DNA of 64,000 nt from positions 310,001 through 374,000 of the forward strand of contig NZ_VOLO01000001.1 of the NCBI RefSeq assembly GCF_007954365.1. The letters run 5' to 3'. The stretch comes from Frigoribacterium sp. ACAM 257. Lineage in GTDB: Bacteria > Actinomycetota > Actinomycetes > Actinomycetales > Microbacteriaceae. The notes below the pieces were generated by a model that was not told the origin of the DNA, ran no database searches, and saw nothing but the letters and a program-made list of their open reading frames with translations. Positions 11,049 through 13,065 of this stretch are shown piece after piece. A program made the position numbers and the translations under genes. Each line of letters begins with the position of its first letter. The stretch's first letter is position 1.

Positions 11049-11053
11049 TCTCT

Positions 11054-11143
11054 AGGCTCCTCACGTGGCGCCATCCAGGCCAACTCCCCCAGGGCGGAAA
11101 CGCAGCAAGGGCAACCGGGCTCTGGCGGGTGCGTGAGGGGTCT
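11054..11143 (+). ncRNA. ffs: Signal recognition particle RNA (4.5S, small bacterial type)
   Basis: About 90 nt. The ends pair over at least 12 positions (AGGCUCCUCACG with CGUGAGGGGUCU, allowing G-U). The apical domain contains CAACTCCCCCAGG, GGAAACGCAGCAAGGG and CGGGCTCTGGCGGGT, the Ffh-binding region and tetraloop arrangement typical of actinobacterial SRP RNA. A CTTTTT run at 11147-11152 ends the transcript and touches the stop codon of the convergent signal peptidase gene. Confidence 0.95.
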
Positions 11144-11150
11144 CCACTTT

Positions 11151-12272
11151 TTAAGGGGCCGTGCTGCAGGTGGCTCCCAGCAGGCCGTAGTTCACCGTTC
11201 TCGTGGCCGAGACCGGCGACAGCCACGGCGCGGTGCCGGCCGTCCCCTGCACGCGGAAGGTCGCGGTGCTGACGCCGAGGATCTCCGCAGGGACCTGCCA
11301 GCGCTTGGTCGTGACCGTGTCGACCGGGAGCGTCACGCCGACCCTGTAGACGTTCCACGACGGCGGCTCGGCTCCGCCGTCCGGGAGAGGCGTCGGGACG
11401 TCCCACGTCAGCACGGGGGCCCCGAGCAGGCCGCCGCCGGTGCACCCGATCGTCGACGCGCCCACCAGCGTGCCCGTTCTCGCCGTGGCGGTCGCCGTCG
11501 CGCGGTCGGCGAAGGCCGCGAGGGTGGGCTCGGGGGGCGCGGCCGTCAGGGCGGCGGCGAGGGCGACCACGACGACGGTCGAGACGACGGCCGTGCCGGC
11601 AGTGCCGGAGGTGCGGTGCCGGCCGGCCGCGTGACGCGGCCCGTCCTCGGGGCGGGCGGGCGCCTCCTCGGCTCCGATCTCGTGCGGACGGGCAGGGGCA
11701 GGGGCGTGCTCGGTGGCGGCGAGGTCCTCCGCGCGGGGGCGGCGGAAGCCGATCATGGCGAGCATGCCGAAGAGGGTGCCGACGACGAACACCCAGCCTG
11801 GCGCGAGGGCCTGGTCGACCCACTCGCCGAGGCGCGGCGCCGACCAGAAGACGCGGTCCGCCTCCGCCACCACGACCGGCTCCGGATCGGTCACCGGGTT
11901 CGCGTCGCCCTTGAGGACGAGAGACCGGGAGGCGCCGCCTGCGTCGTCCGTCTCGACCACGCGGTGGGTGACGCGGACGCCGTCCGCTCGGGGCACGCTC
12001 ACGACGTCGCCGACGGCGACCTCGGCTGCGGGGACGGTCCGTGCGAGCGCGAGCGCACCGGTGGGGATGTCCGGGGACATCGAGCCGGAGCGGAAGATCA
12101 GGGGAGTGACGCCCGCGAAGACGGCGAGGGCCGCGGCCGTCAGGCAGACCACGCCGGTGAGCGCCCCGGCCCACAGCACCACCTCGCGGGCGAAGAAGCG
12201 CGCCCTGGCGTTGCGGCGGGCGTGGTCGGCCGGCGGCCGGTCGTGCCGCGCGCGTCCGGGGGAGGACGCCAT
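11151..12272 (-). CDS. SipW-type signal peptidase I with C-terminal TasA-like segment
   Basis: A 373-aa membrane protease. Residues 30-60 form a hydrophobic segment, followed by the catalytic SGSMSP (Ser64), HRVV (His103) and KGDANPVTDP; a His in place of the usual Lys marks the SipW/archaeal class. A hydrophobic segment at about 160-175 closes the protease domain. Unusually, after a Pro/Glu-rich linker there is another hydrophobic segment (about 228-244) followed by TLAAFADRATATATARTGTL, which closely resembles the processing region of the neighbouring TasA-like protein, and about 100 further residues with a beta-sandwich look. ATG at 12272 is chosen because GAGGGGAG precedes it and the more upstream GTG lies inside a hairpin. 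It probably processes the gene product encoded just upstream. Confidence 0.85.
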   Translation of the reverse strand: MASSPGRARHDRPPADHARRNARARFFAREVVLWAGALTGVVCLTAAALAVFAGVTPLIFRSGSMSPDIPTGALALARTVPAAEVAVGDVVSVPRADGVRVTHRVVETDDAGGASRSLVLKGDANPVTDPEPVVVAEADRVFWSAPRLGEWVDQALAPGWVFVVGTLFGMLAMIGFRRPRAEDLAATEHAPAPARPHEIGAEEAPARPEDGPRHAAGRHRTSGTAGTAVVSTVVVVALAAALTAAPPEPTLAAFADRATATATARTGTLVGASTIGCTGGGLLGAPVLTWDVPTPLPDGGAEPPSWNVYRVGVTLPVDTVTTKRWQVPAEILGVSTATFRVQGTAGTAPWLSPVSATRTVNYGLLGATCSTAP

Positions 12273-12444: not shown

Positions 12445-13065
12445 CTACTGCTGGGTCGCGGTCACCGTCATGGTCGCGGTCACGGTCTTGCCCTGCACGG
12501 TGTTGGTCGCGTCGGCGGGGACCTCGGCGCGGACGCAGAGGTACTCGACCTGGTTGACCGTGAGCGCCCTCGCGGCCGCCGTCGCCGGGCCCGCGCTGAG
12601 CTTCGTCGTGCTGGGCGTGACCACCGTGGCGGGGGTCGCGCTGAACGTGGTGGCGTTGCAGGTCGGCGGCGTACCGACGTTGTAGGTGCCCGTGCCGAGG
12701 CTCGCGACGCCGAAGTTCAGCACCGGGCCGAGGACGGCCGCGTCGGCGCCGCCGGCGACCGTCGTGTAGGCGTAGTTGAAGGGGAGCGTGCCGCCGTTCC
12801 GCACCGTGAGGAGCGCGTACGTCTGGTCGCCAGGCTTCGCCGCGGTCATCGTCAGGCCGGTGAGGGCCGTCGTGACGTCCTGGTCGTTCAGCTTGAGGTC
12901 GAGCGTGCCCGTGCTGAAGCTGCCGGTCGCGGTCACGGTGTCGGTGAACGCCGCGAGGGTCGCGACGGTCCCGAGCCCGAGCACGGTGCCGAGGGCGAGG
13001 ACGGCCCTGACCTTGCCCGAGACGGAGAGGCGGTGGGCGCGCGAGGACGCCGTGGCTGCAGACAT
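12445..13065 (-). CDS. TasA/CalY-like secreted protein with SipW-dependent signal
   Basis: A 206-aa exported protein. After a basic start (residues 1-20) comes a hydrophobic stretch ending in TLAAFTDTVTATGSFSTGTLDL, the pattern of SipW-dependent signal peptides in TasA/CalY-family proteins, with cleavage expected in or just before AAFTD. The mature part is Thr/Ala-rich, beta-strand-like, with two cysteines. TasA proteins form biofilm fibres in Bacillus; that role here is only inferred. ATG at 13065 has CAGGAGAC as ribosome-binding site 9 nt away; the longer upstream reading is a non-coding extension. The next gene on the strand is the SipW-type peptidase. Confidence 0.85.
   Translation of the reverse strand: MSAATASSRAHRLSVSGKVRAVLALGTVLGLGTVATLAAFTDTVTATGSFSTGTLDLKLNDQDVTTALTGLTMTAAKPGDQTYALLTVRNGGTLPFNYAYTTVAGGADAAVLGPVLNFGVASLGTGTYNVGTPPTCNATTFSATPATVVTPSTTKLSAGPATAAARALTVNQVEYLCVRAEVPADATNTVQGKTVTATMTVTATQQ

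Follow-up and report, generated by a model that had tools for sequence, protein, structure and literature searches.

A gene of Frigoribacterium sp. ACAM 257 encodes, in one reading frame, an ER-type signal peptidase followed by a putative internal SipW-type signal peptide and an FN3 domain. The gene lies on the minus strand of the stretch of DNA analysed here (64,000 nucleotides; hereafter the window), next to a gene for a TasA/camelysin-like protein. We conclude that this arrangement is genuine and represents a conserved variation on the SipW/TasA system. It was not found described in the open-access literature searched: titles and abstract openings, a body of text that leaves subscription journals mostly outside, included no fusion of a signal peptidase with a substrate and no such actinobacterial layout. 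Our confidence in the fusion and in the FN3 homology is high. We consider it probable, with room for doubt, that the gene specifies a polyprotein of peptidase and substrate that is cut at A252|A253 by an enzyme of its own kind, and that the FN3 part is a likely partner or initiator of a filament. The relevant features of the window are:

11151..12272, minus strand: whole fused gene, 373 aa; ER-type signal peptidase, putative internal SipW-type signal and FN3 domain
11748..12272, minus strand: signal peptidase part, residues 1-175; TM1 (about 35-52), catalytic region, TM2 (about 158-175)
11601..11747, minus strand: Arg/His-rich linker, residues 176-224; presumed cytoplasmic, with the positive charge read from sequence
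11517..11600, minus strand: third hydrophobic helix (225-243) and c-region (244-252, ending TLA); putative internal SipW-type signal peptide
between 11517 and 11516, minus strand: presumed cut after A252
11454..11516, minus strand: segment starting AFADRATATATARTGTL, residues 253-273; occupies the position of the TasA/TapA donor strand
11154..11453, minus strand: FN3 domain, residues 274-373, with conserved C277 and C369
12273..12444, minus strand: intergenic region whose three strong, G+C-rich hairpins differ little among four Frigoribacterium
12445..13065, minus strand: TasA/camelysin-like gene P0002, 206 aa, with a SipW-dependent-type signal; upstream of the fused gene

The fused gene is a single frame, open from its ATG to the stop and comprising 373 codons plus the stop codon. 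A sequence-only reading of the window had described a complete protease whose frame continues through a second hydrophobic helix into about 100 residues of beta-type sequence. The complete protease and the continuing frame are confirmed, the protein scoring 55.4 bits against TIGR02228 (signal peptidase I), above the cut-off of 51.85. The hydrophobic helix is also present (residues 225-243), but it is the third of the protein rather than the second. Behind it come TLAAFADRATATATARTGTL and then the segment 274-373, which is all-beta by structure prediction, as had been anticipated. In the AlphaFold2 model, computed with 68 aligned homologues, helix 225-243 is followed by a low-confidence stretch (244-265) and, from residue 274 to the C-terminus, by a confident all-beta region; the linker is partly predicted to be disordered (pLDDT < 50 at residues 200-224).

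The fusion was found in four Frigoribacterium genomes. The match in Frigoribacterium sp. PhB116 extends across residues 1-372 (88% in the best segment) and that in F. faeni across residues 1-366 (72% in the best segment). An internal start from which the tail would be translated separately was considered and rejected: past residue 173, as far as the third helix, no start codon is common to the four Frigoribacterium genes, and the sole GTG with a ribosome-site-like stretch before or in the third helix is that at residue 202 of the PhB116 gene. A search of the congener G035 matched neither the TasA-like nor the fused gene, which, with an empty answer being weak by itself, suggests that the system may be dispensable.

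For comparison of homologues we used an alignment of 68 fusions (A4), made from 63 long-tailed open reading frames by leaving out three (L084, whose parts lie in different frames; L141, which has another kind of tail; L101, cut by a contig end) and adding eight Microbacteriaceae rows (the gene under study, L032, L033, L068, L075, L076, L034 and L045). All 68 match TIGR02228 at E up to 1. Residues G63 S64 M65, H103 R104, D123, N125 and D129 are invariant across the alignment; we take S64, H103, D123 and D129, in these individual roles, to be the catalytic Ser, His and acidic residues. The closest structural match of the protease part is human SEC11A (7p2p_A, E 8.3e-04), of the eukaryotic signal peptidase complex; we know of no FN3 substrate-like tail on SEC11. 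Against the SipW model NF046067 the fused protein reaches 33.6 bits, far under the cut-off of 190.

Gene order in relatives indicates where the tail came from. In 10 of 20 wider loci, a tasA-like gene, often a second tasA-like gene, and the peptidase gene are followed by a separate gene for a small signal-bearing protein. An HMM built solely from 10 separate downstream proteins scores the fused protein at 30.0 bits and its isolated tail at 34.8 bits (E 5.3e-09 at a database size of 5000). In shuffle controls with three tails (those of the fused Frigoribacterium gene under study, G110 and G045), the best scores were 10.9 bits from 1000 full shuffles per tail and 12.2 bits from 1000 shuffles of the mature part per tail; the best other gene among 273 called encodes a TasA-like protein and scores 17.4 bits. 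In an alignment of 13 rows (A2; 10 free and 3 fused proteins), the presumed -1 Ala, two Cys and a Trp are invariant. Since the tail is homologous to a separate, peptidase-adjacent gene of relatives, we conclude that the gene is an in-frame fusion of the peptidase and its operon partner, and the third helix appears to be the partner's own signal peptide, retained. The suggestion that the tail resembles the enzyme's own substrates is thus upheld, by its homology to a signal-bearing operon protein, by the conserved site described below and by the probable position of that site on the side of the active site.

Among relatives, the partner is more often a separate gene than a fused one. Within the same family, 28 of 150 genomes have a partner match (32 matches in all). 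Thirty loci were read: six are fused (the gene under study, G110, G045, G115, G031 and G105), in 17 the partner is free and its match starts no more than about 110 nt from the peptidase stop, in one it is free but separated from the peptidase by an LPDTG gene, and six fit neither description. Order-wide, 41 of 198 genomes have a match (44 matches in all, the weakest of which may fall outside the family), and among the 30 loci read the partner is fused in two (the gene under study and L188) and free in 28. Nine of the latter lie directly behind the peptidase and one further behind, six lie in front of it, which is the tapA-sipW order of Bacillus, and for 12 no peptidase was found close by.

The released part had been proposed to be a TasA-like domain. 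This identification did not survive: the tail is an FN3 domain, and the layout is closer to that of the accessory protein TapA. A profile of the tail (A5) matches fibronectin 1fnf among the sequences of solved structures with E 1.2e-12. AlphaFold2 models the isolated mature tail with pLDDT 88.2 and pTM 0.76, and the Foldseek matches listed for it are largely FN3 or FN3-like, at E 0.004-0.044, with none at E <= 0.001. Pfam gives the tail no confident name, PF00041 (FN3) leaving the fused protein unmatched and matching 7 of the 68 fusion rows at E up to 1. A TasA-like fold was rejected on the absence of a PF12389/camelysin match and on the FN3 assignment by both profile and fold. The TapA model TIGR04087 does not match the fused protein and finds one of the 68 fusions (E 0.029), and TapA is absent among the 50 matches listed in each of two fold searches, as it is among those listed for the sequence-profile search. 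The tail carries two conserved Cys, one near each end of the sandwich, which we assume to be bonded to each other. In many of the loci L086-L160 (Rhodococcus and kin), the FN3 domain is followed by Thr/Pro-rich sequence and then by another conserved domain at the C-terminus.

The presumed internal site of the Frigoribacterium gene is TLA|AFAD, with T250 at -3, A252 at -1 and F254 at +2; these are the small -3 residue, the Ala at -1 and the aromatic P2' residue of a SipW-type site. It had been noticed through a 20-residue likeness to the TasA-like neighbour. The likeness is there (13 of 20 identities), but alone it could have arisen by chance: when the Ala/Thr-rich tail is shuffled, the same Smith-Waterman score is reached in 245 of 2000 cases, or in 77 of 2000 when the shuffling is in blocks of 10, and the neighbour ranks 54th among 838 gene products compared with the tail. 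With 245 of 2000 shuffles equally good, we discarded the pairwise likeness as proof of a signal. The observation behind it is nevertheless real, because the same site recurs in all 68 aligned fusions and in free-standing homologues. Ala stands at -1 in 68 of 68 fusions, and no other tail column is invariant. At -3, 66 fusions have T, A, V or S and two have W; position +2 is F, W or Y in 49 and is not aromatic in 19, and position +4 is D in 50. The homologues accordingly have an exported-type domain behind a conserved site, not an ordinary membrane helix with no secreted domain.

An aromatic P2' residue bears on which enzyme may cut. According to the data given for E. coli LepB, which is not an actinobacterial enzyme, no aromatic residue occupies P2' in any of 143 verified substrates; TasA has Phe at this position and is a substrate of the ER-type SipW (PMC10269814). 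Hindrance of LepB by further residues in the region P3 to P4', Trp at P2 in particular, is reported in the same source, which makes P2' only part of the rule (PMC10269814).

Another group of fusions in the same enzyme family likewise joins a peptidase, an internal signal and an ectodomain, here LPXTG-like (L007, L008, L010, L016-L020, L022, L023, L025, L029 and L031). Unlike in the FN3 fusions, the junction is of the ordinary AxA/xxA, LepB type and the C-terminus is sortase-like, as called mostly by eye; an aromatic P2' residue occurs in 0 of 13 picked junctions, an approximate figure with a few doubtful picks. Judged by their junctions, the FN3 tails mostly carry the class of site expected for a SipW-type enzyme, and the LPXTG-like ectodomains the ordinary class. 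TIGR01167, scanned against ten proteins of the LPXTG-like kind, matched both separate genes and one of eight fusions; the three scores, 14.1-15.5 bits, fall short of the cut-off of 15.9. A separate LPXTG-like gene lies downstream of the peptidase in L050 and L033.

Signal models respond unevenly to the fused tails. TIGR04088, which describes the SipW-dependent-type signal, has no match in the tail of the fused protein and matches four of the 68 fusions at E up to 1; since it also misses 12 of the 13 rows of A2, its silence says little. An HMM of 40 TasA-like signal regions gives the fused protein 5.3 bits, where the maximum of 986 shuffles is 4.9, and gives 0.6, -0.9 and -3.6 bits in three congeners; seven of 45 peptidase genes over 300 aa reach 14 bits. 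Taken by itself, the site of the Frigoribacterium gene is therefore a weak candidate. The Arg/His-rich linker would lie inside and the site outside, on the same membrane side as the active site. With fair confidence, we propose that the fused chain contains an internal signal peptide that is cleaved.

The TasA-like protein P0002, encoded upstream, scores 31.7 bits against TIGR04088 (cut-off 19) and 31.5 bits against PF12389 (cut-off 22.5); at E up to 1, a search of solved-structure sequences found no relative of it. Of the 32 fused loci whose peptidase gene was called, 30 have, by a count made by eye, a TasA-like gene with a SipW-type signal immediately upstream (the remaining 31 of the 63 long-tailed open reading frames are uncalled and fall outside the count). 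The exceptions are L102 and L105, and among the 30, L091 has Leu at +2. Of the 20 wider loci, four had no peptidase gene called.

A survey of homologues, which the sequence-only reading had proposed, found the same layout in at least seven actinobacterial genera. Long tails occur in Frigoribacterium, Cryobacterium, Curtobacterium and Arthrobacter (a metagenome assembly), and further in Rhodococcus and kin, Nocardioides, Aeromicrobium and Phytoactinopolyspora. In 80 named loci we counted 137 plus-strand peptidase open reading frames (six of 143 lie on the minus strand and were left out), with tails of at least 120 aa in 63, below 70 in 71 and between these lengths in three. The 80 loci are the best 80 of 98, chosen by similarity to fused sequences and rich in Rhodococcus, so that 63 of 137 is not a prevalence. 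On a tree of 169 peptidases the fusion label changes 12 times, as compared with a mean of 52.7 for shuffled labels. This clustering suggests that the fusion is long-lived and has been gained or lost repeatedly; the tree is a quick one with long branches, on which clustering and repeated change are visible and direction is not. In two loci pairs from two genomes of one genus (L006/L034 and L021/L045), the peptidase is joined to a longer, different beta-type domain, with junctions (TQASFIAD and TRASFVSD) similar to the site of the FN3 fusions. In Frondihabitans sucicola (L084:3974-5262), the peptidase and the FN3 tail lie in different frames, by error, decay or overlapping genes.

We propose the following sequence of events. 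The chain would insert with its active site outside, cross back, and then pass out again. The internal signal would be cut after A252 by an enzyme of the same kind, in cis or by a neighbouring copy, freeing an FN3 protein with the N-terminus AFAD. Like TapA, this protein would most likely be a minor partner or initiator of TasA-like filaments, and might complete the first TasA-like subunit with its flexible N-terminal strand. We predict self-cutting of the fused peptidase with moderate confidence; confidence in a filament role for the FN3 protein, argued by analogy, is low to moderate. Should the cut take place, a cellular signal peptidase would hold its substrate within its own chain, comparable to viral polyproteins that carry proteases. 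One could then test directly whether the starts of TasA-like filaments are positioned by the very enzyme that processes their subunits, and many actinobacterial signal peptidase genes would be read differently, their C-terminal halves resembling separate surface proteins. A stricter version, in which a polyprotein present across many Actinobacteria holds signal peptidase and own substrate in one chain and a single cis cut separates them, is possible but on balance doubtful. Were it true, one enzyme molecule would yield exactly one filament initiator at the place where subunits are processed, and the number and place of filament starts would be fixed.

The third helix might instead remain uncut as a permanent anchor, so that the FN3 domain stays on the peptidase as a membrane-bound base, or as a site where TasA-like subunits dock. 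Descriptions of TapA have it associated with the membrane (PMC10151520) and similar in abundance to SipW (PMC10151520, PMC9674648), and a tethered initiator would suit the same end; moreover, the hydropathy of the third helix is over the TM1/TM2 threshold in most long-tailed open reading frames. An uncut anchor, however, gives no account of the presumed -1 Ala being the one tail column kept throughout the fusions, or of its invariance in the free A2 homologues, which presumably need cutting for release from the membrane, and we regard it as unlikely.

Release of the tail by another peptidase, without self-processing, is quite improbable. A whole-genome search found a second, more distant ER-type peptidase open reading frame (L002) elsewhere in the genome, and the LPXTG-like fusions bear LepB-type junctions on the same enzyme family; but the Phe at P2' is disfavoured by E. 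coli LepB, as far as its reported substrates go (PMC10269814), and the fused enzyme keeps its catalytic residues in all 68 fusions, both of which speak against such release. That the FN3 domain is a passive spacer, acquired by chance and with no special relation to the peptidase, would fit its faster evolution (dN/dS 0.26-0.75 for the FN3 part and 0.05-0.15 for the protease in pairs among the four Frigoribacterium, both below 1), yet homology of the tail to the adjacent operon gene of relatives and the clustering of the fusion label on the tree make this reading highly improbable. An assembly or frame error that merged two adjacent genes, for which the Frondihabitans locus offers a parallel and the Frigoribacterium gene itself offers nothing, is refuted by the identical open frame in the four Frigoribacterium genomes and in other genera.

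In comparison with known systems, the fused enzyme resembles SipW of the Bacillus tapA-sipW-tasA operon in being a Ser-His enzyme with a TasA-like operon partner and presumed aromatic-P2' substrates. It differs in bearing a fused domain of secreted type; to our knowledge, SipW has none. TasA and camelysin share with the tail a presumed SipW-type signal and a donor-strand-like N-terminus, but the fused domain has no camelysin/TasA match. Mature TasA is given as residues 28-261 (PMC10151520), with residues 28-38 as its donor strand (PMC9674648). TapA is described as having a signal cut by SipW, followed by an N-terminal strand that initiates TasA filaments and by a complete Ig fold, which a Cys92-Cys188 bond closes, and the tapA and sipW genes as overlapping (PMC10151520, PMC9674648). 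The tail is like TapA, as so described, in its putative SipW-type signal, its N-terminal donor-strand-like segment, its sandwich with a Cys near each end, and the encoding of the partner beside the peptidase in relatives. TapA, however, is the product of a separate gene and has a V-set Ig fold, whereas the Frigoribacterium tail is FN3 and fused behind the peptidase. By analogy, we take the tail to work like TapA without being TapA, given that fold class and sequence differ.

The three hairpins between the TasA-like gene and the fused gene comprise 53 consensus pairs, in which we found one two-sided change, four one-sided changes and a few broken pairs, with a negligible covariation term. Our guess is that they form an attenuator or mRNA stabiliser, an element that might set the ratio of expression, with the filament protein abundant and the peptidase scarce. 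At the other end of the fused gene, a small bacterial SRP RNA gene (RF00169, 58.9 bits) at 11052-11148 on the plus strand adjoins the stop codon, which lies at 11151-11153 on the opposite strand.
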